Below are positions 1 to 17,500 of a stretch of DNA of 38,939 bases, piece after piece. Position 1 is the stretch's first letter. Each line of letters starts with the position of its first letter. A program made the translations under genes and the position numbers. Under the pieces are notes generated by a model, which worked only from the letters and a program-made list of their open reading frames with translations, was not told the DNA's origin and made no database searches. This DNA comes from Synergistaceae bacterium (lineage in GTDB: Bacteria; Synergistota; Synergistia; Synergistales; Synergistaceae), in the NCBI GenBank assembly GCA_031289955.1, contig JAITOL010000026.1, positions 1-38,939 of the forward strand, in the 5' to 3' direction.

Positions 1-6
1 AGGAAT

Positions 7-1314
7 ATGGGCTACAAACTGAGGCTGTTTTTGGGCAACGTCGATGAAATATCCCTCCGGCTGCTCCAATTGATCTGCAATCAGCCGGTCACGCTCCTGG
101 ATCCAACGCTGTGCGACGGACGGGCCAATACGAGATGGCTCTTTCAGCAGGCGGCGAGCCCGGATTGCCTCAACCTCATACTGACGAGCCTCGGAGGCCG
201 ATGGACGGAGGATTCGCCGTTCCGCATACCGAAGGAGTGTTTTCTTCTTCCCGAGTGGCTGGAGTGCGAGATTACGCCGGCGCTATACAGCGATTCATCC
301 TCCACATTGACTGTCCGCACGCTCAATGAAGTTATGAACTCCTTCCAGAAAAACAACTCCGTCGCGATTCGTTCCGTTCTGTTCCGGTCGGTATTGAACG
401 ACAGGGAATACGAGCTGGTGGACCGGGAGGCGGGGCGACAGTTCACCATAGTACCCATTGGATCCATTCCGAAAAAACTGGACAGGGACGCGCCTTTATT
501 GACCGATCTCTTCTTCGAGGAAGCCACCCGTTCGACATTGTCGATTAAATCCGCCGCCCTTCAGCTCATGAACATGGACTATCAGGTCAACTGGGCGATC
601 TTCAGCGCGCTGGCGAACCTCAGCTCAAACTGGTCTCCCCAACCCAGGCTTTGCGAACCGATCACCGACAGCGGCAAAGTAAACATAGCCGTCGTAAGGC
701 ATGAAACCCTGACGCTCGGAGGGGACGGCACTGAACACCTGCTCCGCGCTCTCGGCTGCAACGTCGTCGAAGTGCCCCTGGAGGGGAACATCGTTCATAA
801 CGTGCCGATACACGGAGTCTATATACCGCACGGACCATCCTACCTGGCGCTGCCCAAATTCTTCGGCAATATCTATCTCAAGACGATGTTGAACAGGGCC
901 TCGAACGGAAACTCGTTCATGCTGGCGGAAGGCGCTTCCGCCCCGATACTCGGGGACAAAATAGCCCTGCCTCCGGGACACGCGGGAGGAGGAGTGGGAA
1001 GAGGGTTCGGCATACTGCCGTACGACAGCGAATACAAGTCGGCCACGAGCGGCGCGCCGCAGAAGTCGGTCGCGTTCCGCAAAAAACTCAACCCGCTCAT
1101 ATCGGGCTCCCAGGAGTGGGTATGGGGATACTCGTCCCCCAACCTGGCCATGGAGGCCAAATCGCCCGGGGACGAATGTTGGGAGACGAAGGAGAGCCTC
1201 GAGGGAAAGCGGTCCGCCGCGGACGGCTGGTGTAAAGGCCGCATACTCGCGTCGTCCATGAGACTGGAACCGTGGAGCGCTCCCGCTTCGTTCCGCCGCT
1301 GGCTCGAAGGTTAG
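7..1314 (+). CDS. CobB/CobQ-like (cobyrinate a,c-diamide synthase fold) glutamine amidotransferase-like protein, probably a pseudoenzyme
   Basis: 435-aa ORF. The C-terminal half follows the CobB GATase layout (VNIAVVRHETLTLGGDGTEHLLRALGCNVVEVPL..IHGVYIPHGPSYLAL...FMLAEGAS...GFGILP...GRILASSMRLEPWSAPASF). The Cys of AECGG and the His of the C-terminal HLHF-type motif are absent. The ORF starts 6 nt from the window edge, so the true start may lie upstream. Confidence 0.6.
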   Translation: MGYKLRLFLGNVDEISLRLLQLICNQPVTLLDPTLCDGRANTRWLFQQAASPDCLNLILTSLGGRWTEDSPFRIPKECFLLPEWLECEITPALYSDSSSTLTVRTLNEVMNSFQKNNSVAIRSVLFRSVLNDREYELVDREAGRQFTIVPIGSIPKKLDRDAPLLTDLFFEEATRSTLSIKSAALQLMNMDYQVNWAIFSALANLSSNWSPQPRLCEPITDSGKVNIAVVRHETLTLGGDGTEHLLRALGCNVVEVPLEGNIVHNVPIHGVYIPHGPSYLALPKFFGNIYLKTMLNRASNGNSFMLAEGASAPILGDKIALPPGHAGGGVGRGFGILPYDSEYKSATSGAPQKSVAFRKKLNPLISGSQEWVWGYSSPNLAMEAKSPGDECWETKESLEGKRSAADGWCKGRILASSMRLEPWSAPASFRRWLEG

Positions 1315-1317
1315 GAC

Positions 1318-2514
1318 ATGAGGACTTTGGATTTTGAAACGGCGTCCCAAACGGGAATCAAACTTCTGGCTGAAGCGGAGGGCATAGCCCGCGACCTCGT
1401 CGAGTGGAGAAGGAGTTTTCATCAATTTCCGGAACTCGGCATGGAGGAACACATGACTTCGAGCAAAATAGAGGGCCTGCTCTCCTCGCTGCCGGGTGTG
1501 GAGGTGACAAAGGGCTTCGGCCTGTCGACCTGCGTGATAGGAAAGATAGGCGCGGATCTGCCGGGAGGCGCTCTGGCGTTTCGGACGGAGATAGACGCCG
1601 TCGAGGTTCGCGAGGACACCGGGCTCCCATTCAGCTCATACGACGACAGGGTATCGCACGTCCAGGGACATGACGCCCACATGGCGGCAATGCTCGGCGC
1701 GGCGTTTTTATTGTCCGACCACAGAGCCCAGCTCAAACATCCGGTCGTGTTCATATTTCAACCGGCCGACGAGGGCAAGGGCGGCTCGCGATACCTCCTC
1801 GACGCCGAAATAAAGGAAAGATTCAACATCGAGAGGATGTTGTGCGTACACTGGGTACCGTATCTTCCCTACGGGCAGGTCTTTACAAACAAAGGCGGGG
1901 TAACCGCGATCACGAACAAGCTGCATATAGGCCTCCTGGGACAGGGAGGCCACGGCTCCACTCCGCACCTGACAAGCGACCCGCTCTACCTGTCGGCCCT
2001 CATACAGATAGCCCTTCAATCTATAATCACCCGCGAGGTCGATCCACAGAAGACGTCGGTTCTATCGTTCGGACGCATCGACGCCGCCGAGGTCTACAAC
2101 GTCATCGCGGAAGAGGTGGATCTCTGGGGAACGCTTCGAACGGTCGACCGGGAAACCCACAGATTCCTCAGGCGCCGCATAGAGGACGTCGTGCGGGGCA
2201 TGGCGCATATGGCCCACATCTCGGCCTCCGTGGAATATACGCTCGATTATGGGCAGGTTATGAACGACGACAAGCTCGTATCGGATATATTCAAGGTGGG
2301 AACGGCCCTTCTGGGCAGCGACGCCATGTGCCTCCTCCAAAATCCTCTGCTCGTAGGAGAGGATTTCTGCTATTTTGCGGAAAGGATACCGTCCTGCATG
2401 ATGTTCCTGGGAACCGGAATGGAGTATGGCCTGTATCACTCAAGATACGACATACCGGAAAACCTGCTGCCCTTCGCTTCGGCCTGGGGAGCGTATCTCG
2501 CCCTTTTTCTGTGA
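1318..2514 (+). CDS. M20 family (M20D-like) metallopeptidase/amidohydrolase
   Basis: 398 aa with WRRSFHQFPELGMEE, QGHDAHMAAMLGAA, FQPADEGKGG, CVHWVPYLPYGQV, GQGGHGSTPH, GEDFCYF and LYHSRYD, matching M20D motif order. Starts 3 nt after the preceding stop. Confidence 0.85.
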   Translation: MRTLDFETASQTGIKLLAEAEGIARDLVEWRRSFHQFPELGMEEHMTSSKIEGLLSSLPGVEVTKGFGLSTCVIGKIGADLPGGALAFRTEIDAVEVREDTGLPFSSYDDRVSHVQGHDAHMAAMLGAAFLLSDHRAQLKHPVVFIFQPADEGKGGSRYLLDAEIKERFNIERMLCVHWVPYLPYGQVFTNKGGVTAITNKLHIGLLGQGGHGSTPHLTSDPLYLSALIQIALQSIITREVDPQKTSVLSFGRIDAAEVYNVIAEEVDLWGTLRTVDRETHRFLRRRIEDVVRGMAHMAHISASVEYTLDYGQVMNDDKLVSDIFKVGTALLGSDAMCLLQNPLLVGEDFCYFAERIPSCMMFLGTGMEYGLYHSRYDIPENLLPFASAWGAYLALFL

Positions 2515-2554: not shown

Positions 2555-4030
2555 TTGAATAACAGACTCGATGAGATGATAATGCATGGCTGCGCCGCCG
2601 CCCCAGCGGAACCGTGCATCTGGTGGCGGGGCGCGTGGTGGTCGCGAGGCGCTTTTCATGAAATGATTACGGAATGTGAGGAGAATCTGGTAAAGTGCGG
2701 ATTCTCGGCCGGACAGAGGCTCGCTTTGGTAATGCCAAACAGCCCGATTCTTCTGGCAAGCTGCGTCGCGGTCTGGAGGCTCGGAGGAACAGTCGTCCCC
2801 GTAAACCCTCAGCTCAAATATCCGAGCGTTCCCGAATATCTGAAGAGCGTAGACGTCTTCGGCGCAATAGTGAGCAAGGAGGCAACCGGGGTAGTGGACG
2901 CGCTGAGGGAATCCGGCATACCGGCCGAGGGGGCGGACTTAGGCGATGCTGTGCCGATAATAGAGGGCATAACTGGCATTCCCGATCCGGATTCGTCGAT
3001 AGCGGCACTGTTTCATACGAGCGGCGCCGGCGGAGTCGTAAAAGCCGTACCAATAACCCACGACAACATCGTTACGCTTCTCGAATCCATAATGAAAGTC
3101 ATATCCGACATGAACGAGGATGACGTCATCTTAAACGCCATACCTAACTATCACTCGCTCGGCTTCGTGGTCGGCGGCATAATGCCCCTCGCTTCCGGCA
3201 TACAGCAGGTGCTCCTCCCGTCGTTCATGCCGCCCAAAAACACGCTTGCCGCCATACGCTCGGCCGGGGTGACGATAATCCCCGCTGTTCCGATAATGCT
3301 CAGCATACTCCTCGGACGCGGGAAAGATATAATTCCCATGTCGAAAATAAAACTTGTCTTCTGCGGAGGCGGCGCCCTCATTCCGGGAATAGCCGAACGC
3401 GCGCGGGAAGTGTTCGGCGTCCGCCCACTCTCCGGCTATGGGCTGACCGAGGCGTCGAGCGTCCTCGCTGTAACTCCGTCGGAAGGCGAAATCAGACCCG
3501 GCACGTCGGGCAGAATATTGCCGTGTTTCGACGCGAGGGTGGTCGATTCGGATGGAAATCTGCTGCCGTTCGATACGGACGGAAGGCTCTGGATACGCGG
3601 GAAAGCCCTCGCCAAAGGCTATTACAGGGCGCCGGATATATCGTCCGAGCGTTTCCGCGACGACTGGTTCGACACTCAGGATATTGTCAGATTGGATGAG
3701 GCCGGCTACATAACGATAGTATCGACCACCGTCGACACGATAATGGCGGAGGGTATGCCGGTGTATACCGGGGAGATAGAGGCGGTGCTGTGCTCTCATC
3801 CCCAGATAGCCAAAGCCGCCGTCATTGGAGTGCCGCGAAAAAACAAGGGCGAATATCCGAGGGCATATATAGTCCTGGAGGAGGGCGCAACGCTGCGCCC
3901 CAGCGACATCATCAAATACGGGCGCAGCAAGCTGCCCAACTACAAAGCTCCGAGATCGGCCAAAATATTGCCGGAACTTCCAGCGGACAGCCTCGGAAAG
4001 GTTCTGAAACATGAACTTCGGAACCTTTGA
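2555..4030 (+). CDS. ANL superfamily AMP-forming acyl-CoA synthetase/ligase
   Basis: 491 aa, TTG start. P-loop-like HTSGAGGVVKAVPITHDN, YGLTEAS, TQDIVRLDEAGYITI, and the C-terminal lysine region PADSLGKVLKHELRNL. Confidence 0.85.
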   Translation: MNNRLDEMIMHGCAAAPAEPCIWWRGAWWSRGAFHEMITECEENLVKCGFSAGQRLALVMPNSPILLASCVAVWRLGGTVVPVNPQLKYPSVPEYLKSVDVFGAIVSKEATGVVDALRESGIPAEGADLGDAVPIIEGITGIPDPDSSIAALFHTSGAGGVVKAVPITHDNIVTLLESIMKVISDMNEDDVILNAIPNYHSLGFVVGGIMPLASGIQQVLLPSFMPPKNTLAAIRSAGVTIIPAVPIMLSILLGRGKDIIPMSKIKLVFCGGGALIPGIAERAREVFGVRPLSGYGLTEASSVLAVTPSEGEIRPGTSGRILPCFDARVVDSDGNLLPFDTDGRLWIRGKALAKGYYRAPDISSERFRDDWFDTQDIVRLDEAGYITIVSTTVDTIMAEGMPVYTGEIEAVLCSHPQIAKAAVIGVPRKNKGEYPRAYIVLEEGATLRPSDIIKYGRSKLPNYKAPRSAKILPELPADSLGKVLKHELRNL

Positions 4031-4101: not shown

Positions 4102-7100
4102 CTAACCTACGGACCAGTAAAGTATCACCGAATCTCCGCTCGTAACTTTCGACGAACCTCCCGCGGATGCCGGAAGACCGGTAACCTCGACCATGTTGGG
4201 GCTGCCGTCGATGCCCTTTACGTTCTTCTGACCGACGCCTTTCGGATCGAAATTGCCGGACAGGTTGTCAAGGCTGACGAGCAGACTGTTGCGATTGCCG
4301 TTTTTAACCTCCGTAATTCCCGTTATCCTGACCCCGTCCAACGTTATATATTTAGCCTTGCCGGATTTATCTCCCCCCGACCAGAAATTTGCCGCGCCGC
4401 TCGTCACGTCGAGAGCGTAAAGACGGGAATCCCCGTTTATGTTCTTTTTAAACGCGCATACGTCCAAATCGTCATCTTCCGGTCTGCCCCTTTGGATAAA
4501 CGTGGAGATAAACAGCGTTCCGTTGATGAGAACCGGCTTTGCCGATACGTACTCCCTGAAGTTTCTCGAGCTTCTTTTCATCAGGGGAATGTACCATCCC
4601 ATATAGTTCTCGCCGGAGGTCAGCGAGCTCATCGGATCGCCCGACGAAATAGATTTCATCTTCGCCCTCGTAAAAGGAGCTCCTTCAATATCCGCGCGGA
4701 GGCCAAAGATCATCTGGCTCTCATTGGGGATAACTCCTCTCGGGTAGTCTTTGCTTCGCCCGGCAGCAGAGTCCGCGGTGCCGCCCGAGGCCCAGATCAT
4801 TCCCTTGACGCTGCCCACGGACAGTCCATGAGGTATCGAGTAGCTGTGCGAGTTTTTGGCGGCGGAGATATCGTCGGCCTGCAATGTGGCTATCGTCGAT
4901 ATACGCCAGCCGCTCACGCCAAGAGGCCTGGCGGCGCCGCTCGCGTCTTTGCCCTCCATGGAAACGCGGAAAATATTTCCCCTGTTGTCGGCCGCAAATA
5001 TCCGCCCGGTCAGATACGGGCTGATATTTGACCGAAACAGCGTAAGCTCGGAGTTCATCATTCCCATGTACGGAGCGGGCCCCTTCTCGCCTCCGCCTAT
5101 TTTCGAGGATGTCCGCCCGAGATGCGCGCTGTCGAATTCCCTGAGCACCCGGCCGTCTTTTGGATCCAGCAGGAGCAGAGTGGCGCCTTCAAGTCCGTTG
5201 TTGCTCAAGTCCACGTTGGTCTGCGTTCCGCCGGCCATAGCGATGAAGTTCTGTTGTTCGCGAGCCCGTAATCCCCCGGTTACGCCCATTCCAGGCCTTG
5301 GGCTGTTGAATCCCAGCTTCATATACGGCTTCTCGAACCCGCTCAGGTCACTGTACCGCGCGATGACCGGCTCGTTCGACGAACTATCCATAGCCGCCAT
5401 GGCGTTTCCGACTTTCTCCCTGTACCACAGCAATTTCGGATTGCCGCGAGAGGAGACGTCGAGCATATAGAGCCCGCTGCCGCCCCTGCCGAGAGCGCCG
5501 AGAAGATACGTCCCCCATCCCGATCCGTCGCGGGGAGACGACATGTCGAAATTTCTCTTTTGAAGGGATCCGTCGAGCGTATAGACCGGGTTGGACCTCA
5601 GCTTTCCGCTGCCCTCCGGCGCCTGTACGTCTATCCACTCCATCTTGTTCTCAAAAATACGAGTCTTCAATGTGGCGAGCCTTGCGGGCAAAAGCGCCGG
5701 CGGAGGCAGTATCGCGGATTTTTCATCTCCGCTCTTCGGGTCGACCGTGTGCAGTATGCCATCGTTCGTCTGAAGATACAGCGTGGGCGGCTGAGTCAGG
5801 TTTTTATCTCTCAAATGCTTTGCCCACGCCATATGACCGGGCAGAGAATCGATCTCGGGCGGATCGCTTACAAGCGTTATCGCGCTCTGCCCTATATCTG
5901 CCAGCATGTTGGATCGTTCGAAATCCATGCCTCTCGCGTAGGAATGATCGTATCCCTGCATCCACGCGTATAGAGCCTTGTGCGGAGGGTATGATGAGAA
6001 TGACCCAGGCGGCAGCCCGTGCGACGACATGCTCTTGTCCGTCATGCCGGTGAGCTTCATGAAATTGGGGTCGCCGGCCATGAGGTCGACAAAACGCCCG
6101 GAGGCGCCGCTCCAGTATTTCAGATTCCTTCTTCCCCGATCCTTTCTGATGCTGTCTCCAAGCTCCCAGGAGCGGGTCATGACCAGATTGCCCGCGTTGT
6201 CCCTCGAAGCCTCGTAACGCCAGAGCGAGCCAACCCATTGATCGGACCGCATCGCACGGTAGCTGTAGGCGTACATGTCGAGCGTCTCCCCGGGAGAACC
6301 GGAGGAGGGGGCGGAGGGCACGGCGCCCTTGCCGGGGCGTTCCGTCGGGAAATCGTTTATGTAGTTCATGGCCTCCTTGATGGCATCTATCAGCGACGGC
6401 ACATCGTCCGCGAAGTACGCGGTTATGTCGGAATTATTATCGTAAGGATCGGCGCCCTGACCGGCGCGCGCCATCCTGTTAAGGTTTGTCCTCATTTTTC
6501 CCACCTGCTCGCGCAGGACAGGGTCTTTTTTTATCTCCGGATCCTCAGGATCGGCGACTATCCCGATTACAAGCGTCCTTATCGGGCGCTCCAGATCTAT
6601 GAGTTCAAGCTTGCGCTTCTTCCTGCCGTCGCCCGCGTCCCATTTGTATGACATCCGGGTGAGACGCCCTCTTCCGGTTTTGTTCTTTTTCGCGTCCGTA
6701 TATTCGTAGAGGTTTTTTATGGCGTCCCACGAATTATAACTGTATGATTTGTCGTCCACCGGCTCTATCTCCATTCCGGACGCTATGATGACGAGCCAGT
6801 TATCCTCGCAGGCGTTTCGTATCGGAAACGACAGGTCGACGAGGTTTTCGGGCCCCATCGCCTTGGAATTTGCGACGTAACCCCTCCTTACAATATCCTC
6901 CTTCGCGATTTTATAATAGATATACGGGGAGAAAAAATCGATAACCGAACCTGCCGCCTCGCCCGAACCGGCGTTGAAATACGCCTTGGAACTGCCCAAA
7001 TCCTGAGTTTTGTCGATCCTGTGATATCCTATGTAATTTGTGTTCGAGACCGAATCCGAATACCAGACGCTCCGGGATCCTCTTTCGATATTGACCTCGC

Positions 7101-8778
7101 GGCTAAGGTCGTATTTCGGATTCGGGTCGGGGAATATGGCGTTAGGCAGGGCGAACGTGCCGGCTATTCCGATCTCCGGATCCTTGAAATAGTGAAACTG
7201 GGAGTTTCTGGCCTCCTTATCGGTATTGGACGTGAAACTTTTCGCGTCGGTTCTTGTGGTGTAAGGCACAGCAAGTGTGGGGCCGGCGCTCTTCATATCG
7301 GCGAGCCCGTTTATCCAGAGCCTGATTTTGTCGGCGTGCTTCATCTCATACGTCTTGTAATTGTACTTTTTCTGCCACGTATAATCGTAATCGGCGATGG
7401 GAACGTGAAGGGACGCCCTGTTCTCGAGCTTGAAAAGCGACCGTTCCGTATCGGTCCATCCGGATTTCCAGCCGTATGGGTCGTTCTCCATGTTGTAATT
7501 CGGCGCCACCTGGGTGTTCGCCCACATCGTGAAAAACTGGCCGTGCATTCCCTCCCAGGCGGAAGGATGTCCCGTTATGTTCATCAAAAGTATTCCGTTT
7601 TTGAATTGAAGCGTCGAATAACGATCTTTTAAATTTGGCGGAACCGGTATGGCGCCGTCCGGTCTCTTGGAATCCATGCTATAATCCCAGTAATTCGCCG
7701 GAGAGTAGTTATTTTGCGAATCGAAGTACCTTTGAGTATAGATATTTCCTCCGAAGGGCCTCACCCTGAAAATTGTGTTGAAATCCGTGCGGTCGCTGCC
7801 GCCCGTATGATGATCGTTTCCGACGTACGGCCTGTTCGGAAATCCGTTGGCCGTATTGACCGGCGACAGAAACGTCGTAGCGAGCCCAATTCTTATATTC
7901 CTGAAGAGGTCTTCATCCTCCAAAAGACGCCACAGCGCCAGCTTTGCCTGATACATTCTGCTGTCGTTGGGCACGAGATCATCGGCCGCGGGGCTCCCCG
8001 AACCGGTCCATCCCGTCTTCCAATACTTCGGATCCTTGAAAACGAGCGCGTAGGGAAATGGGCCGTTATCCAGGTTATTATAGACGTAGCGAGCTGTTTG
8101 GGAGGCGCCCATGTATTTGCTGATCACCGTATAGTCCGCCTGGTAATGCGTTTTGGCGTCGTACGGGCGCGACTCGCCCGTAAAGTGAGTTTCGAGCGGG
8201 TCTTTCTGGTTCGAGTAGGCCTCCTTGATCGACATCGCGCGCGCGGGGTCGGCGAATGGAAAATAATATTTGTCCTTGTTCGCTTCGAGATCCGCCTCAA
8301 TTGTTCCTCCGGATTTAACGTAGTTGTTGCTCCCCACGATATCCTTGCCATAGAGATTGCGCCCCTTCATTACGGATAGACCGCTCCATGCCGCGGGCAG
8401 CGCGCCCATCCCGAACGTGCTTTGCGACATCAGATTCTGGGCGTCGTTAAAGCCATAGCCGTAAACATCCTTTGTTTTCTTCCAATCCGCGGCTTCCATC
8501 GTGCCGTAATTCCATTTCGGGTTCATGATAACGACCGGCATCGCTCCCTTAGGGGAAAAGCTCATGGCGGCGGTCGACTCCATCAAAAAAAGCACGTTTG
8601 CCTTTTTTACAGCCTCCACAATTTCATCCGCGTCCTCGTCGGCCATCTGACTTTTGAGGGGCGCTCTCGCCGCAGGGATAACGGCGGCCCTCGCCGGCAA
8701 AATGTCCAATGCTATAAATAGCAGGAACATGATCGCAATTGCCGTCTTTTTAACGATATTTGAGTTACTGTGCTGCAT
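4102..8778 (-). CDS. PilY1/PilC-like type IV pilus-associated adhesin
   Basis: 1558 aa with N-terminal hydrophobic signal, degenerate VWA start (NVLFLMESTAAM) and C-terminal propeller motifs LQTNDGILHTVDPKSGDE, WGTYLLGALGRGGSGLYMLDVS and GRIFAADNRGNIFRVS. RBS ccaggagg lies upstream on the minus strand. Confidence 0.75.
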   Translation of the reverse strand: MQHSNSNIVKKTAIAIMFLLFIALDILPARAAVIPAARAPLKSQMADEDADEIVEAVKKANVLFLMESTAAMSFSPKGAMPVVIMNPKWNYGTMEAADWKKTKDVYGYGFNDAQNLMSQSTFGMGALPAAWSGLSVMKGRNLYGKDIVGSNNYVKSGGTIEADLEANKDKYYFPFADPARAMSIKEAYSNQKDPLETHFTGESRPYDAKTHYQADYTVISKYMGASQTARYVYNNLDNGPFPYALVFKDPKYWKTGWTGSGSPAADDLVPNDSRMYQAKLALWRLLEDEDLFRNIRIGLATTFLSPVNTANGFPNRPYVGNDHHTGGSDRTDFNTIFRVRPFGGNIYTQRYFDSQNNYSPANYWDYSMDSKRPDGAIPVPPNLKDRYSTLQFKNGILLMNITGHPSAWEGMHGQFFTMWANTQVAPNYNMENDPYGWKSGWTDTERSLFKLENRASLHVPIADYDYTWQKKYNYKTYEMKHADKIRLWINGLADMKSAGPTLAVPYTTRTDAKSFTSNTDKEARNSQFHYFKDPEIGIAGTFALPNAIFPDPNPKYDLSREVNIERGSRSVWYSDSVSNTNYIGYHRIDKTQDLGSSKAYFNAGSGEAAGSVIDFFSPYIYYKIAKEDIVRRGYVANSKAMGPENLVDLSFPIRNACEDNWLVIIASGMEIEPVDDKSYSYNSWDAIKNLYEYTDAKKNKTGRGRLTRMSYKWDAGDGRKKRKLELIDLERPIRTLVIGIVADPEDPEIKKDPVLREQVGKMRTNLNRMARAGQGADPYDNNSDITAYFADDVPSLIDAIKEAMNYINDFPTERPGKGAVPSAPSSGSPGETLDMYAYSYRAMRSDQWVGSLWRYEASRDNAGNLVMTRSWELGDSIRKDRGRRNLKYWSGASGRFVDLMAGDPNFMKLTGMTDKSMSSHGLPPGSFSSYPPHKALYAWMQGYDHSYARGMDFERSNMLADIGQSAITLVSDPPEIDSLPGHMAWAKHLRDKNLTQPPTLYLQTNDGILHTVDPKSGDEKSAILPPPALLPARLATLKTRIFENKMEWIDVQAPEGSGKLRSNPVYTLDGSLQKRNFDMSSPRDGSGWGTYLLGALGRGGSGLYMLDVSSRGNPKLLWYREKVGNAMAAMDSSSNEPVIARYSDLSGFEKPYMKLGFNSPRPGMGVTGGLRAREQQNFIAMAGGTQTNVDLSNNGLEGATLLLLDPKDGRVLREFDSAHLGRTSSKIGGGEKGPAPYMGMMNSELTLFRSNISPYLTGRIFAADNRGNIFRVSMEGKDASGAARPLGVSGWRISTIATLQADDISAAKNSHSYSIPHGLSVGSVKGMIWASGGTADSAAGRSKDYPRGVIPNESQMIFGLRADIEGAPFTRAKMKSISSGDPMSSLTSGENYMGWYIPLMKRSSRNFREYVSAKPVLINGTLFISTFIQRGRPEDDDLDVCAFKKNINGDSRLYALDVTSGAANFWSGGDKSGKAKYITLDGVRITGITEVKNGNRNSLLVSLDNLSGNFDPKGVGQKNVKGIDGSPNMVEVTGLPASAGGSSKVTSGDSVILYWSVG

Positions 8779-9250: not shown

Positions 9251-9739
9251 ATGGAGGCAAGTCATGAATTCGATTACGAGATATGCAACTCCCGCATCAG
9301 ACCCATTGCGGACTCACTTATAAAGAAGTTCGTGGAACTGAGGCACATAGATGTGGAGAGCGTTCTATTCATCGTGAATCACAAATACGCGGGGGCGAAG
9401 AACAAAGTGGTTCTCGCCAGAACATCCCGCGTGCAGGAGAAGTGGAGGGATATTCTGTATCAGCTCGGAGCTTGTTCCTATTTACACGTCATGGAGTTTT
9501 TCGGCAAGACGACCGACTGTCTCGACGAGAACCAGATAACCGCGCTCGTGTACAGGGAGCTCAGAAGGATAGGGCCGGAAGGGGCGATCACCGCGCCGGA
9601 CACCAACGAGTGGTGGCAGGTATTGATGGGGTTGGGACGTCACTGGTTTTACCCGGACATGAGCTGTCCAAACCTTCTCGATGATAAGGTCGACTGGAAA
9701 ATGCTCATGGGTTCGGATTATGAGGCGCCGGGAAACTAA
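9251..9739 (+). CDS. Putative metallopeptidase-like protein (phage-type metallopeptidase fold) lacking HExxH
   Basis: 162 aa, RBS aaaggag upstream. The layout VLARTSRVQEKW...LHVMEFF...DENQITALVYRELRRIG...DTNEWWQVLMGLGRHW resembles phage-type putative metallopeptidases (HELxH then HDVxEF), but the HExxH position reads YRELRR. Family call made from pattern only. Confidence 0.45.
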   Translation: MEASHEFDYEICNSRIRPIADSLIKKFVELRHIDVESVLFIVNHKYAGAKNKVVLARTSRVQEKWRDILYQLGACSYLHVMEFFGKTTDCLDENQITALVYRELRRIGPEGAITAPDTNEWWQVLMGLGRHWFYPDMSCPNLLDDKVDWKMLMGSDYEAPGN

Positions 9740-9772
9740 AGAACCGCTGATTCAATAACTTATAAAGGAGTT

Positions 9773-12700
9773 GTGGTAGAGGTGCACAGAACTGAGCTGT
9801 CAACGCGCGTACGCATGGTAATGTTTCTGGCGGTCGCTTTCTTATTGGCGCCGTTTCGTCTTTGGGGAGGAACGCCCGCAGAATCCGCCGACAAATTTGT
9901 GGTGTCGGAGTTCTCTCCGCGGGGACTCGTATCCGGCCCCACAAATATAAGCGTCACATTTTCCACCCCCGTAATTTCAAGCGACGACGTGGGCAGGAGC
10001 GTCGACTCGAAAGCGATGCCCATCGTTTTCACTCCATCGATTAGCGGGCAAGGAAAGTGGGTTTCACGTTCGACCTTTCTTTACCAATTGCCATCAGGAC
10101 ATCTCCAGGAGGCGACGGAATTCAAGGCCGTAGTATCCGAGAAACTGAAGGACTACAGGGGGGTTCAGCTGGGCGGCGCAAAAGAGTTCGCGTTCAATAC
10201 CGCGCCTCTCGAGCTTTTGGATGTGAGGCAGACTGACGCCGACATGGAATACGAAACAGTCAAATATCAGCTCCAGTTCAACGCTCCGGTAAATCCGGCC
10301 AAGTTAAACTCATACATGAGCATTACCGACGAAAAGGGAGATAAAACCGAATTTTATTTCGAAAACACCGGCGCCTCCAATATCCTTTACCTTAGAGTGC
10401 CAGTGCTTGACGCGACCCCCATCGTTTTTTCCATAAAACCGGGACTTACGAGCGAACGAGGGCCGTTGTCCATGAAGAACGCTTTCAATGCGAAGGTTGA
10501 CAGGGACGTATCGCTTAAGATACGCAATTCATGGGTCGGGAACGATTACTCCGGATCCGTCATATTTATAGGTACTACGGCAGAGGTGGACGTCGATAAA
10601 GCCAAGCCGTTCATCGAAATAACGCCCTCCGGGGATTTCAGCATAGGCAATGACGGATCGGGGCTTCGGATATATGGGGACTTTCCCCCGAGGGAACTGA
10701 TAACCGTCAAGCTCCGCGCCGGCCTGACGCCCTACGATAAGCGGGGAGGATCTCTTGCGGCCGACTGGGAAAGGTCTTTCGTCTTCCCTGACTACGACCC
10801 ATCTCTGGATTTTACGTCGCAGGGGAGGTTTATATCCCCGGCAAACGAGGAATTGCTCATGCCGCTGTCTTCCGTCAATATCAAGAAGATAGATGTAACG
10901 GTGGACAGAGTCTACGATAATAATGTAGTTTTTATAACAAGGGATGAATGGCCCTACTACATCTCAACTCTCTCAAAGGAGATATACCGAGAGTCTTTCG
11001 ATATATCGTCCGAACCCAACGAGAAGTCGGAACATTCTCTGGATATAGGCAAGATATTGAACGGCCAACATGGACTCTTTCAGATAACGGCCGCCAATAG
11101 CGGCTCCTGGCCCAGAACTACACGCATTATAAATGTCACTGATATCGCGGGAAGCGTCAAGATGGGAGACGATACAGCGCTCGTTTGGGCCAATTCTCTC
11201 AGGGAAGGAAAACCTTTGGAAGGGGTCAAAGTGGAGCTCTACTCTTCCAGCAATCAGATCATAGCTTCCGGCCTGACGGATAAGCACGGAGTATATCTCC
11301 TCAAACGCGAAGAAGACTGGGAACCGAATCTGTGGCCCAGCCTAGCGATACTCAGCAATGGAGACGACGTTTCCGTTCTGCGTTTCAACGGAAATATATG
11401 GAATACAGGAAACGAAGCGTATACAGGCGCTCCATATCTCAATGGCAAATACCAGGGCATTTGCTATGCGCCGCGAGGCGTGTTCAGGCCCGGTGAAACT
11501 GTGCCGATACAGATGCTGATAAGGACAGGTGACCTGTCACCGGAAAAACCATTCCCCGTTCAGCTCAAGATCTACACCTCAATGGGCAGGGAGTGGAGCT
11601 CCTCTTCCGTAATGTTGTCCGAGATGGGAATGGGATCGGCGGACATCAGCCTCAGCGACGCCGCGCCATCCGGAACGTGGCGCGCTTCCGTCCATGTCCC
11701 CGGAGAAACGGCGCCTATAGCCGCTGGGGAATTTCGGGTCGAGGACTTCGCGCCGCCGAAGATAAATGTCACGGCGTCAAGCGATGTGAAGGAACTGTTT
11801 CGCGGAGACTCGCCAGCGATCAATATATACGCGGAGTATCTTTTTGGCGCCGCCGGCGAGGGATTGAGCTACGAGGTAGAGACGTCGTTTATTCCCCGGG
11901 AATATTCGCATCCGAACTGGCCCGATTATTATTTCACGGATTACCGACTACAATTCAGCCCTCACAGCAACATAGAGGCAACTGGCGAGTTGTCCTCGGA
12001 TGGAATGGCCAGCGTAACGCTTCCGGCGATAAAAGAGAACGCCGGATCCATTTTGGACGCGTCATTCAGGGTGGGGGTGAGAGAGGACGGCGGCAGATGG
12101 GTCTATAAGAGCGTGAGCGTTCCTTATTATCCGAGAAAGACGCTGCTTGGCATAAAATCTCCCAGGGAGGGTTTTGTGACTAATTCGCCAGTGCCTTTCG
12201 CCTTCGCCGTGATCGATACCGCGGGCAATCCGCTCGACACCGACGGCGTCACATTGACCGTCTATAAGGAAAGATCGCGCCGGATAACCACTACCGTCGA
12301 CGGCGCGCGGCGTTCGGAGCTGCGCACCGAGAATATGCCGCTAGTGTCTTTCGATAAGGCGCTTGTCAAATTCGAGAAGGGGCGGGCGGAAACATCGGTG
12401 ACATTCCCGAGCGGTGGTTCTTACAGCGTCGTTCTCGATGACGCAAAGGGAGAAGCCAGCGCGGCTCTTCATTTTTATGTGTATGATTCCAGATGGGCTT
12501 ACGGCGACGAGGGCGACGCGACTCTTCCGGAGACTCTCACGATAAAACTCGACAAAGATACCTACAAAACAGGAGAGCGGGCGACCGCCACAATTTCCGG
12601 ATCGTTCGGAGGAACCGCTCTGCTATCGGTGGAAACAAACTCGATCATACACTACGATACGTCCGCCGAGGGCGGCAAGAGCGTATCTTTCTCGTTCGAA

Positions 12701-15208
12701 GTGACGAGCGACATGATGCCGAACGCATGGGTCACGGCGCATATGATTCGACCCGTCATGCCGGAGGACGCGTGGTCGGCCCACAGAGCTTTCGGGGCCG
12801 TTCCTATCGTTGTGGACACGAGCGAAAAGAAACTAGCCATCGAAATTGCGTCGCCTGATCGCATCGAGCCCGCTCGATCGAATGATTTTTCGCTTCAGAT
12901 AAAAGACTCCGCAGGGCGTGGGGTCAAAGGAGAAGCGGCGGTAATGCTCGTGGACGAAGGCGTTTTGGGATTGACGCGCTACAAGACTCCAAACTTCTAC
13001 GAGTTCTACACGAAAAAACGAGCGCTGACGCTCTCGGCGTACGATATATATACCGAGCTGATGCCTCTTTATCTCAAAGCGCCTTCAGTCCTGACGCCCG
13101 GGGGGGGATACGACGACTCGATGGAATCCATGATGAAAGCGTCGATGTCGCCGGTAAAGGCCGACCGATTTAAAATCCTGAGCCTGGTGCGCAGGGTGTC
13201 TACCGATGAAAACGGAAGGGCTGACTTTACTCTCGATATACCCGAATTTGCGGGGCGGGGGAGACTGATGGTCGTCGCGGCCTCCGCTGCGGCATTCGGC
13301 TCGGCGGAGAGTACGCATACGATTGCCCGGGATGTGGTTACGGACATAACATTACCGAGAGTTCTATCGCCGCGGGATGTATTTGAATCGGAGATACAGC
13401 TCTTTAACAGGACGGGCCGATCATTGGATATGGAGCTTGAACTTACGCTTACCGGCCCTCTCTCGCTTGCGTCAGTATCCGGAAAACCCGCAGCCGAGAG
13501 TAAATCCTACAAACAAAAAATCGCCATTCAGGCCGGGGAAAAACCCTCGGCAATACCGCTTGTGATAAAAGCCGATGATAATTCAGGCGTCGCGACCGTA
13601 TCTCTTCGCGCGCTGTATGGCAAAAACACACAGGAACAGACGATCGACATAGCCGTAAGACCTCCTTACCCCAGGATAACAAAAATGGGGCTCTTTACGC
13701 TCAAACCAGGCGAATCATCCGTACTTGACCTGCCTTCCGACTGGTTCCCCGGAACAAGACGCGCCGTTGTGACAGTCTCCGGTCTTCCCGTAGTGGGCAT
13801 TACCGATATGGCGAAATTTCTTCTCGAATATCCATATGGCTGTCTCGAACAGACAGTTTCAAGCGGCTGGACATTGCTGACGCTTCCCGATCTGGCCGCG
13901 CAAATCGATCCCAGACTCGCAACGCGGGAACAGATGGAATACGCTATATCCCGGGTTATAATGAGAATTCAATCGATGCAGCTCTATAATGGCACATTCT
14001 CGTCATGGCCCGGCGGAGACGCGCTGGATTGGAATACGGTATACGCGACTCATTTCCTCTCCGAGGCGGAAAAGAGAGGATGGGGTGTCCCAGTTCAAAC
14101 GCTGAGAGCTTCTCTGGAGAGCCTCAGATATTTAATTTCACTTCCTCCTCAGGGCGAGGATAAATATGTTTATGGCGCCAGCCTATCGGTCAGGGCATAT
14201 GCCGCTTATGTCATGGCGCTAAGAGGCGAAGCCCCGAGGGCATGGATGTCGTATCTGAAGGACAACATGTCATCAATGCACCAGTATGGCCGCATCCTAC
14301 TTGCCGCGGCATACGCGGCCTCGGGCGATAAAAAAACCGCGTCCAGCCTGCTCGGTGATAACGTGCCTCCGATAGTGCAAGGAGACGGAACCGAAAAACT
14401 CAACTATGACTCTCAGTTGCGCACACAGGCGCTTTATCTCGCCGCGTGGAACGAAATAGACCCGACATCTCCAAACACTCTCAAAGCCGCGGCGGAATTA
14501 CTCTCGATGTTCCATTCCGCCAAATGGTACACCACTCAGGAAGCAGGGTGGACGATGTTGAGCCTCGCTAACTTCTACTCCTTCCATAAAGACGAGGGTA
14601 CGGCGTTTCTCACAATGTCCGCCGACGGCATGGACGATTTGAGCACGAGTGGCGACGTGACGATGACATCGCGCATTTCCGCCGATACAAATAAAGTGAC
14701 CGTCAAAAACAGCGGAAATGGAACCGGATACGCGACATGGGCATCGGATGGAGTTCCAAATGCCACGCCTGAAGCGGTCGACTCGGGCATCAAGGCAATC
14801 GTAACCTACTACGATTCGAAAGGTTACCCCATCACCCAGGACTCGATCATCGAAAATGGCTCGCGCGTACGCGCACAGATCATCCTGCGTCCGCTTGCCG
14901 GCGAAGTGAAAAACATCGTGGTCGCGCTCCCGCTCCCTGGAGGACTTGAGATTGAAAACCCCAGGTTGACGACGCCCGATGATTCGTCCTACGAATATTC
15001 CGGCTACTCGTATTCCGCGCGCACCGAAATGAGGGACGACAGACTGCTGCTCTTCGTGGACTACATCTACAACAAGGAATTCAAATGGGAATTCACCATG
15101 CGGGCGGTAACGCCAGGCGCCTTCATATTGCCCCCGATAGCGGCGGAAGGAATGTATTCTCCCGGAACTCGCAGCATCGGTGAAACCTCAAAAATAACCA
15201 TAAAATAG
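9773..15208 (+). CDS. Alpha-2-macroglobulin family protein (bacterial A2M, YfhM-like)
   Basis: 1811 aa with MG-type domains, LVDEGVLGLTRYKTPNFYEFY, and thioester motif YPYGCLEQTVSS (CLEQ codons at 13841-13852). GTG at 9782 is an alternative start with better spacing to aaaggag. Confidence 0.93.
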   Translation: MVEVHRTELSTRVRMVMFLAVAFLLAPFRLWGGTPAESADKFVVSEFSPRGLVSGPTNISVTFSTPVISSDDVGRSVDSKAMPIVFTPSISGQGKWVSRSTFLYQLPSGHLQEATEFKAVVSEKLKDYRGVQLGGAKEFAFNTAPLELLDVRQTDADMEYETVKYQLQFNAPVNPAKLNSYMSITDEKGDKTEFYFENTGASNILYLRVPVLDATPIVFSIKPGLTSERGPLSMKNAFNAKVDRDVSLKIRNSWVGNDYSGSVIFIGTTAEVDVDKAKPFIEITPSGDFSIGNDGSGLRIYGDFPPRELITVKLRAGLTPYDKRGGSLAADWERSFVFPDYDPSLDFTSQGRFISPANEELLMPLSSVNIKKIDVTVDRVYDNNVVFITRDEWPYYISTLSKEIYRESFDISSEPNEKSEHSLDIGKILNGQHGLFQITAANSGSWPRTTRIINVTDIAGSVKMGDDTALVWANSLREGKPLEGVKVELYSSSNQIIASGLTDKHGVYLLKREEDWEPNLWPSLAILSNGDDVSVLRFNGNIWNTGNEAYTGAPYLNGKYQGICYAPRGVFRPGETVPIQMLIRTGDLSPEKPFPVQLKIYTSMGREWSSSSVMLSEMGMGSADISLSDAAPSGTWRASVHVPGETAPIAAGEFRVEDFAPPKINVTASSDVKELFRGDSPAINIYAEYLFGAAGEGLSYEVETSFIPREYSHPNWPDYYFTDYRLQFSPHSNIEATGELSSDGMASVTLPAIKENAGSILDASFRVGVREDGGRWVYKSVSVPYYPRKTLLGIKSPREGFVTNSPVPFAFAVIDTAGNPLDTDGVTLTVYKERSRRITTTVDGARRSELRTENMPLVSFDKALVKFEKGRAETSVTFPSGGSYSVVLDDAKGEASAALHFYVYDSRWAYGDEGDATLPETLTIKLDKDTYKTGERATATISGSFGGTALLSVETNSIIHYDTSAEGGKSVSFSFEVTSDMMPNAWVTAHMIRPVMPEDAWSAHRAFGAVPIVVDTSEKKLAIEIASPDRIEPARSNDFSLQIKDSAGRGVKGEAAVMLVDEGVLGLTRYKTPNFYEFYTKKRALTLSAYDIYTELMPLYLKAPSVLTPGGGYDDSMESMMKASMSPVKADRFKILSLVRRVSTDENGRADFTLDIPEFAGRGRLMVVAASAAAFGSAESTHTIARDVVTDITLPRVLSPRDVFESEIQLFNRTGRSLDMELELTLTGPLSLASVSGKPAAESKSYKQKIAIQAGEKPSAIPLVIKADDNSGVATVSLRALYGKNTQEQTIDIAVRPPYPRITKMGLFTLKPGESSVLDLPSDWFPGTRRAVVTVSGLPVVGITDMAKFLLEYPYGCLEQTVSSGWTLLTLPDLAAQIDPRLATREQMEYAISRVIMRIQSMQLYNGTFSSWPGGDALDWNTVYATHFLSEAEKRGWGVPVQTLRASLESLRYLISLPPQGEDKYVYGASLSVRAYAAYVMALRGEAPRAWMSYLKDNMSSMHQYGRILLAAAYAASGDKKTASSLLGDNVPPIVQGDGTEKLNYDSQLRTQALYLAAWNEIDPTSPNTLKAAAELLSMFHSAKWYTTQEAGWTMLSLANFYSFHKDEGTAFLTMSADGMDDLSTSGDVTMTSRISADTNKVTVKNSGNGTGYATWASDGVPNATPEAVDSGIKAIVTYYDSKGYPITQDSIIENGSRVRAQIILRPLAGEVKNIVVALPLPGGLEIENPRLTTPDDSSYEYSGYSYSARTEMRDDRLLLFVDYIYNKEFKWEFTMRAVTPGAFILPPIAAEGMYSPGTRSIGETSKITIK

Positions 15209-15253
15209 GGCGATTGGGCGCATGAACGGCATAAAGGAAGAGGAGATTAGATA

Positions 15254-17500
15254 ATGAAACGCGCGCGCAATGTATTTTTAGCGATTGTTTTAGCACAGGC
15301 GATAAGCGCCATCCTCTTCCTTTATTGTGTGGATATACCATCTCAGTTCCCTTTGTTTCACGTGAAACACTATGAAACGTCTCCGCTCGTCCTCGATATG
15401 AACGGAGATGTTTTAAACGTTTCTCTCTCAAAGTCCGAGGAATGGTGCATACCGGTCTCCCTCGACAAAATGGGGCGATGGACAGAGTCGGCAACGCTAG
15501 GCATAGAGGATGGCCGATTTTTCAGACATCACGGAGTTGACCCAATTGCCATTGCTCGCGCGCTCTTCACCGACATCAGGCGAGGCCGCGTCATCTCCGG
15601 AGCTTCAACCATAACAAGCCAATTGATACGGATCTCCGTTCCAAGAAAAAGGACGCTTTATACAAAACTGCTGGAATTTTGGGCCGCCATGCGAATTGAA
15701 AATTACATGAACAAAAAAGAAATCCTGGAACTATATCTCAACAGAGCTCCGTTCGGGGGCAATATAAGAGGAGTAGAGGCGGCAAGCATTGCATATTTCA
15801 ATAAGAAAGCGAACATGCTGTCACTCGGAGAATCCGTGACGCTCATATCCATGTTATCCTCTCCCAGTAAATTAAGGCCCGATAGATTCCCGGAAAGAGC
15901 GAGAGAATCCCGCGACAACAAACTTGCCTTGCTTTACGAAAAAAGAATTATTTCCCAGGAAAATCTGGATAACGCCATGAACGAATACCTGCCCGGCAGG
16001 AGATATTCATTTCACAACGAAGCATCCATGGCGGTGACGCACGCCATTAAACTTGCGCCCGGTGAATCAATCGTGAAATCGACCATCGATAAAAACCTAC
16101 AGCTCGTTCTCGAAAAGAAATTAGGCGACGCGTTGATCTACTACCCGGGGAAAATAACATCTTCTGGTATTGTAATTGAAAATTCAACAGGGGCAGTCAA
16201 AGCATATGTCGGAAACGCGAGGCATGGCACATCGCTCCCGAACGCGCAGGTTGATTGCGGAGATGCGCTGCGCTCTCCGGGATCAACCTTAAAACCATTT
16301 ATATACGCGGCCGCCTTTGAAAGAGGGATACTGACGCCATCCTCCCTTTTGGCGGACACTCCGCTGGCTTTCAGGGGAAGCGCGCCGAGAAATTTCGACA
16401 TGTCCTACAGAGGACCAGTCAGCGCGCGCGTGGCATTGTCATCATCTTTAAACGCGCCAGCCGTGAGGGTGCTCAGGAAAGTGGGCTATACGAGCGCAAA
16501 AAACCTCTTGAATCAATTCGGCTTCTCACACATAAATCAAGCCGCGTCATTCTATACGGATTCACTCATCCTCGGGGGATGTGAGACTACGCTCATCGAA
16601 TTGGCCTCGGCATATAGAGCTCTCGCTATGGAGGGCGTCTATACTCCGGCGAAGTGGACTCAAAATTCTCCGTCCTCGGCAAGGCATGTCATTTCTCCGG
16701 AGGCGTCTTATCTGGTTACCTCTATTCTTCAGGATGAGCGAAGATTATTGCCTCTTTATCAGGAATTGTTCCAGGAGAAAAACCAATCGCTCGCTTTTAA
16801 AACAGGGACATCATATGGACTGAGAGACGCCTGGTGTATAGGGTATACCTCAAAACACACGATAGGAATATGGGTAGGCTCTCCTCCCGGCGAAGGCAAT
16901 CCGTCTTTAGTGGGTTTACAAGCGGCCGCGCCAATATTACTGGAAGTTGCCCGCGACCTGTGGGATGAACACGATAATCATTTATCGCGCCCCAAGGATG
17001 TATATGCCCGAAAAGTATGCGCCCTTTCAGGCGAGATACCGACAAAAAACTGCCCGCAAGTTACGGCCGATCTCGCGATAAGGAACGTCACACAAATGAC
17101 GCTCTGCGCTTTGCATAAAAATATAGATGGAAGATCATATATTGCATGGCCGCCCGAATTAAAAAATTGGATGCAGGCGCCGGAAGATTTGACGCAATCC
17201 GCAAATACGGTGAAGATCATACGTCCCGCACGAGGCCAAACGATGATACTCGAAGAACAGGACGAGACGGGAAGAATATTTCTTTCCGCTGAAGGGGATG
17301 CCCCGCACTACTGGTATCTCGATGGTAAATTCATCGGCATATCTTTAAACGGCGAGGGCATCTTTATGGATGTTTCACGTGGAACACACAAGGCGAGCGT
17401 AATGTCGGGCGACTCGAGCGACACGGTCTCCTTCGAGGCAAGAACGCCAAAAGAGATAGGTAGCTCCTTAAATAAATGGAAAGAGAACGTGCTCAATTAA
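15254..17500 (+). CDS. pbpC: Penicillin-binding protein 1C (bifunctional transglycosylase/transpeptidase)
   Basis: 748 aa. Glycosyltransferase motifs GIEDGRFFRHHGVDP and GASTITSQLIR, transpeptidase motifs SPGSTLKPFIY, SSSLN and FKTGTSYGLRDAW, and a C-terminal BiPBP-like domain. Directly follows A2M. Confidence 0.92.
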   Translation: MKRARNVFLAIVLAQAISAILFLYCVDIPSQFPLFHVKHYETSPLVLDMNGDVLNVSLSKSEEWCIPVSLDKMGRWTESATLGIEDGRFFRHHGVDPIAIARALFTDIRRGRVISGASTITSQLIRISVPRKRTLYTKLLEFWAAMRIENYMNKKEILELYLNRAPFGGNIRGVEAASIAYFNKKANMLSLGESVTLISMLSSPSKLRPDRFPERARESRDNKLALLYEKRIISQENLDNAMNEYLPGRRYSFHNEASMAVTHAIKLAPGESIVKSTIDKNLQLVLEKKLGDALIYYPGKITSSGIVIENSTGAVKAYVGNARHGTSLPNAQVDCGDALRSPGSTLKPFIYAAAFERGILTPSSLLADTPLAFRGSAPRNFDMSYRGPVSARVALSSSLNAPAVRVLRKVGYTSAKNLLNQFGFSHINQAASFYTDSLILGGCETTLIELASAYRALAMEGVYTPAKWTQNSPSSARHVISPEASYLVTSILQDERRLLPLYQELFQEKNQSLAFKTGTSYGLRDAWCIGYTSKHTIGIWVGSPPGEGNPSLVGLQAAAPILLEVARDLWDEHDNHLSRPKDVYARKVCALSGEIPTKNCPQVTADLAIRNVTQMTLCALHKNIDGRSYIAWPPELKNWMQAPEDLTQSANTVKIIRPARGQTMILEEQDETGRIFLSAEGDAPHYWYLDGKFIGISLNGEGIFMDVSRGTHKASVMSGDSSDTVSFEARTPKEIGSSLNKWKENVLN
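15354..15369. promoter_or_regulatory. parS: parS centromere site TGTTTCACGTGAAACA (perfect 16-bp palindrome)
   Basis: Exact match to the bacterial parS consensus TGTTNCACGTGAAACA. Lies in the pbpC coding region, about 3.3 kb from parB. Confidence 0.93.
17371..17386. promoter_or_regulatory. parS: parS centromere site TGTTTCACGTGGAACA (reverse complement TGTTCCACGTGAAACA)
   Basis: Its reverse complement is the canonical B. subtilis-type parS. Lies near the 3' end of pbpC. Confidence 0.95.

Follow-up and report, generated by a model that had tools for sequence, protein, structure and literature searches.

A CobB paralog retained across Synergistales that has lost the catalytic residues of both active sites

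The window analysed here is the whole of contig C190 (38,939 nucleotides) of a Synergistaceae bacterium, and its first base falls inside a gene for a degenerate paralog of cobyrinate a,c-diamide synthase (CobB), which we call pseudo-CobB (Table 1). An identical stretch of 119 bp is common to the window start and the end of contig C213, and this overlap joins the two contigs into a 464-residue reading frame whose TTG start codon, with AGGAGG ahead of it, is 81 bp upstream of the first window base. The same start region is found on unbroken contigs in eight near relatives (L004-L011). The Met encoded at base 7 is therefore residue 30. An earlier note on this DNA had described an intact reading frame from 7 to 1314; the frame is indeed uninterrupted through 1-1314, but base 7 does not hold as its start, and the upstream sequence to which the note had looked for the true start places it at the TTG codon on contig C213.

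Table 1. Pseudo-CobB, its family-defining positions and its operon partners in the window
Feature	Position	Strand	Remark
Degenerate CobB paralog (pseudo-amidotransferase), residues 28-464 of 464	1..1314	+	residues 1-27 on contig C213
Asp42-Glu43; Asp42 = first Asp of CobB GPDYID	43..48	+	D in 54/63; second Asp unconserved
CLNLILT (83-89), strand where CobB has (D)IAVIEG	166..186	+	Glu position L/I/F/V
NDREY, family-specific near-invariant N-x-R-E-Y (N160, R162, E163, Y164)	397..411	+	near former nucleotide site
PHG (303-305), at CobB oxyanion-strand GG	826..834	+	His304 in 55/63
AEGAS, nucleophile elbow, CobB AECGG	925..939	+	profile alignment; Cys to Gly338
SSMRLEPWS, C-terminal strand, CobB YLHxNF	1252..1278	+	R448 at His position; new invariant W452 63/63, S453 61/63
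M20 amidohydrolase (TIGR01891)	1318..2514	+	3 bp past pseudo-CobB stop; conserved operon partner in part of the order
AMP-binding (acyl-CoA-ligase-like) enzyme	2555..4030	+	conserved operon partner in part of the order

Further along, the window encodes on the minus strand a 1558-residue protein (4102-8778) that seems to carry a signal peptide and matches the PilY1 beta-propeller below threshold. At 9251-17500, a small gene of the PhageMetallopep family is followed by genes for a bacterial alpha-2-macroglobulin (1811 residues) and a penicillin-binding protein with a BiPBP_C domain, the latter two being a familiar pairing.

The gene neighbourhoods, defined by homology, vary across the order. 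In the window's lineage, pseudo-CobB heads a tight operon, and the gene order is a divergent PPDK_N-type gene, pseudo-CobB, the M20 amidohydrolase, the AMP-binding ligase and then usually a NudC-like NUDIX gene. Many genera have pseudo-CobB together with M20 and the ligase, or with the ligase alone, and certain genera lack M20 or both. In other families the gene after the ligase is either citrate-lyase-ligase-like (exceeding the TIGR00124 cut-off) or an RfaE-like kinase, with a HAD hydrolase and a PdxR/MocR-like regulator further downstream. In a second clade, two genes lie upstream of pseudo-CobB in 6 of 12 loci, one Tex-like (assigned by visual inspection of its sequence) and one for a TIGR00275 flavoprotein, and the loci have no downstream gene in common. 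Since M20 and the ligase stand beside pseudo-CobB in part of the order and are absent elsewhere, the link with these partners is real in part and not universal.

Several neighbouring genes have features of their own. The citrate-lyase-ligase-like gene (L103:12126-13187; 303 bits against a TIGR00124 cut-off of 262) follows the ligase in several genera and is swapped for the NudC-like gene in the termite lineage. Behind the NudC-like gene of L090 we identified by eye, on sequence only, a CbiD-like and then a CbiE-like gene (L090:13115-14871), and L092 has the CbiD-like cluster in common with this locus. The M20 amidohydrolase of the window carries Gln at the Cys of HxCGHD, and all termite-lineage copies read SHVQGHDAH or SHAQGHDAH, against MHACGHD or MHGCGHD elsewhere; the other M20 motifs are mostly kept. 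This Cys is a metal ligand in M20D enzymes, and the M20 partner may, to judge from the motif, be an altered enzyme too. The AMP-binding ligase keeps the YGLTE motif; in relatives of the window's copy (L077, L102, L103), the C-terminal GK motif reads GE, the expected Lys being absent.

The protein encoded at the window start matches CobB over its full length. A profile of 26 orthologs aligned end to end over 441 columns with a profile built from 15 canonical Synergistales CobB proteins (hhalign, E=2.4e-21), and with all 63 family members the value became 4.5e-27, both E-values being those of single comparisons. By the reverse route, the family profile recovered canonical CobB genes in whole genomes at ~1e-11. 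A CobQ-type origin was rejected, as CobQ aligned weakly and over only 144 columns of the glutaminase part (hhalign, E=5.4e-5). The profile comparison, which could have put the protein outside the CobB/CobQ GATase family, grouped it with CobB. Pfam gave no match for pseudo-CobB, with GATase_3 below its cut-off, and NCBIfam gave only a sub-threshold CobBC match, with the CobB model below its cut-off; the true CobB of the host genome passes the curated CobB cut-offs. Searching PDB sequences with the family profile returned just weak GatD matches (E ~0.05).

The AlphaFold (AF2) model of a close ortholog (L083; 464 residues, 81% identical) has a mean pLDDT of 89.3 and a pTM of 0.91. Foldseek comparison of this predicted model with the PDB matched the C-terminal half to GatD, HisH, PdxT and the glutaminase portion of CTP synthase (probabilities of 0.99-1.00, with E-values around 1e-7 to 1e-5), and the N-terminal half to HypB, FleN, CooC and the nitrogenase Fe protein NifH. 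Pseudo-CobB is predicted from this model to comprise a SIMIBI-type half and a class-I glutaminase half. The full-length profile alignment and the structural matches agree with the CobB-like fold order proposed in the earlier note.

As the note had also proposed, both active sites have lost their characteristic residues. The analysis shows loss of the catalytic Cys and His, the GKT of the P-loop, the Glu of EGVMG and the RHLGL motif. In the profile alignment, AEGAS indeed lies at the nucleophile elbow in place of AECGG, and the nucleophile Cys is replaced by Gly338 (window 931-933) in 63 of 63 family members. The catalytic Cys of GatD adopts a Ramachandran-disallowed conformation (PMC5871853); Gly may have become fixed at this position because it tolerates such a conformation. 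At the position of the catalytic His, the window protein has R448, and the family has mainly Arg (30 members), followed by Cys (8), Lys (7), Val (5), Tyr (4) and His (3 of 63). SSMRLEPW had been assigned to the correct strand, with coordinates one codon off (1252-1275 rather than 1249-1272).

In the N-terminal half, the equivalent of the P-loop is ADEQRPGKIMSG, residues 9-18 (ADEQRPGKIM), which lies off the window and is degenerate. It departs from (S/T)GxGKTT, the Lys being retained in 24 of 63 members and the two Thr being mostly V/I and P/M/A/S. The assignment of the N-terminal MGYKL stretch to the P-loop position is thereby superseded, and MGYKLRLFLGNVDEIS aligns with RGLxVxPFKxGPDYID of CobB, not with the P-loop. 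The EGVMGL(Y/F)DG motif is lost, with L, I, F or V at the Glu position, and RHLGL is absent. These replacements strongly support the view that pseudo-CobB would be non-catalytic as a CobB-type amidotransferase.

Conservation differs between the two domains. Of the positions invariant in CobB, 21 of 63 keep the same consensus residue in the pseudo-CobB family. In the N domain, the CobB-invariant columns show no more conservation than the rest (1.93 vs 1.95 bits, permutation p=0.45). Those of the glutaminase domain, by contrast, still exceed the rest in conservation (1.91 vs 2.37 bits, p=0.0035), and the conserved positions include Gly positions and H304, a pattern that fits a pocket possibly kept without its chemistry. 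The family also has near-invariant residues of its own, namely E11, F37, D61, F75, N85, N160, R162, E163, Y164, R173, G181, W225, W437, W452 and S453.

Of the 188 Synergistota genomes, 79 have a match to the family profile; in G009, G109 and G117 the match is a canonical CobB gene, and setting these three aside leaves 76 genomes. Pseudo-CobB is present in 30 of the 63 sampled genera, about half, all belonging to the order Synergistales, and a scan of one genome per species over 84,980 species, based on one motif, returned Synergistota only. All 63 members form one clade (100/100) in a maximum-likelihood tree, distinct from CobB and CobQ. Pairs whose dS was unsaturated gave dN/dS values of 0.10, 0.15 and 0.16. 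Between genome G000 and more distant genomes, the identity of pseudo-CobB (58-72%) is similar to that of true CobB (56-64%). Gly for Cys in every member and the low dN/dS confirm that the residues were lost and the gene retained beyond chance; the low ratios and the order-wide retention also support the selection for a non-catalytic or repurposed role that had been suggested from the window. In the open-access literature, we found no report of such a protein family.

Because the key residues of both sites are lost and the gene is nevertheless under strong selection, a new, non-amidating job is very likely. On balance, we favor the view that pseudo-CobB is an ancient, non-catalytic CobB paralog and most likely a ligand-binding, regulatory or scaffold protein, whose likeliest partners in the window's lineage are the M20 amidohydrolase and the ligase. 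A duplicate of CobB would have given up glutamine hydrolysis and CobB-type ATP use while retaining the two-domain fold. Both sites would have been dismantled, by the change of Cys to Gly at the nucleophile elbow and the loss of the His, the P-loop and the Glu, and the product would now act by binding, regulation or scaffolding, most probably with the two enzymes encoded in the same operon. We infer the absence of activity as well as the binding role; a binding, regulatory or scaffold role is likely, the partnership in this lineage is plausible, and the identity of the partner and of any ligand is speculative. Two observations weigh against this reading: several genera lack the partner genes beside pseudo-CobB, which is there either solitary or preceded by the Tex-like and flavoprotein genes, and the new near-invariant polar residues E11, N160, R162, E163, Y164, R173 and H304 could form a new catalytic site.

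The second observation is the core of the main rival explanation, a neofunctionalised enzyme that lost the old chemistry and built a new site from E11, D42, N160-x-R-E-Y, R173, H304 and E450-x-W-S. Numerous polar near-invariants are unique to the family, several of them would lie, according to the model, just past the ends of strands, as do the active sites of SIMIBI and GATase proteins, and the gene is placed among enzymes of amide hydrolysis and acyl activation. However, no catalytic motif can be recognised in the protein, it exceeds the cut-off of no Pfam or NCBIfam family, and the N-domain columns of the CobB active site are without special conservation. We regard such an enzyme as rather unlikely.

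A connection with B12 is more improbable still. The host genome also carries intact CobB and CobQ. Hand counts over the high-quality genomes (completeness of 90% or more, contamination of 5% or less) gave 28 with both the family and CobB, 16 with the family only, 43 with CobB only and 29 with neither, and the two are not associated (Fisher p=0.70, a guide only, as the genomes are non-independent through shared ancestry). Co-occurrence thus gave no sign of a B12 role, and since the presence of pseudo-CobB is unrelated to that of CobB, a role in B12 synthesis is unlikely. Pseudo-CobB proteins should not be annotated as B12 biosynthesis genes. The counts likewise make it improbable that pseudo-CobB is a prozyme-like regulatory or dimerising subunit of canonical CobB, or that it binds corrinoids within B12 metabolism: homology to CobB and a BtuR corrinoid adenosyltransferase gene nearby in several termite-gut genomes would suit such a role, but 16 of the 44 high-quality family genomes, including Acetomicrobium, have no detected CobB, and 43 of the 72 without the family have one.

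An unusual active glutaminase or amidotransferase with displaced catalytic residues is very improbable. The fold is kept, and two His residues, H304 (55/63) and H261 (34/63), are located within or close to the former glutaminase pocket, but no ortholog column among the 63 members provides a Cys/His pair there. The most conserved Cys, C280, sits at a strand start, outside the pocket, which forms at strand C-termini. The displaced dyad, named in the earlier note as an observation that would count against loss of activity, was looked for and rejected, and GatD, a relative, requires both its Cys94 and its His189 (PMC5871853). Finally, a decaying pseudogene or assembly artefact, to which the split of the gene across two contigs might point, is refuted by the low dN/dS and by the intact copies that dozens of separately made assemblies contain, including those of complete genomes and of an isolate.

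It is possible, if doubtful, that early in the history of Synergistales a CobB dead at both sites became a new ligand sensor, an allosteric subunit or a new enzyme serving acyl-amino-acid hydrolysis and acyl activation. If true, such a function would be new to the CobB/CobQ superfamily. The family, overlooked by family databases, persists in about 30 genera of a single order whether or not a genuine CobB is present, and offers a natural case of the use of a two-domain ATP-dependent amidotransferase fold after its chemistry has been lost.

Compared with CobB/CbiA cobyrinate a,c-diamide synthases (TIGR00379, NF002204), pseudo-CobB has the same collinear, full-length two-domain architecture and keeps L60-D61, D42, G279, G305 and N317. 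It differs in its ~14-16% identity, in the loss of the P-loop, Glu, RHLGL, Cys and His, in scores far under every CobB model and in forming a separate clade. GatD of the lipid II isoglutaminyl synthase MurT/GatD (PDB 6gs2, 5n9m, 9sq9) is among the best structural matches of the predicted C-terminal half, although the equivalents of both its essential residues are replaced in pseudo-CobB. The prozyme of trypanosome AdoMetDC is described as a dead paralog retained as an activator of the active enzyme (PMC6221367); there the active partner is known, whereas pseudo-CobB co-occurs with active CobB no more often than by chance. Human CPS1, which retains an inactive class-I glutaminase-like domain with Ser294 in place of the catalytic Cys (PMC4655335), is a precedent for a retained dead glutaminase domain. 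Its partner ATP-using domains stay active, however, whereas the ATP domain of pseudo-CobB is degenerate too. Glutamine amidotransferase pseudoenzymes are mainly known as such single dead domains on live partners, and here both halves of a CobB-type enzyme appear to be dead.
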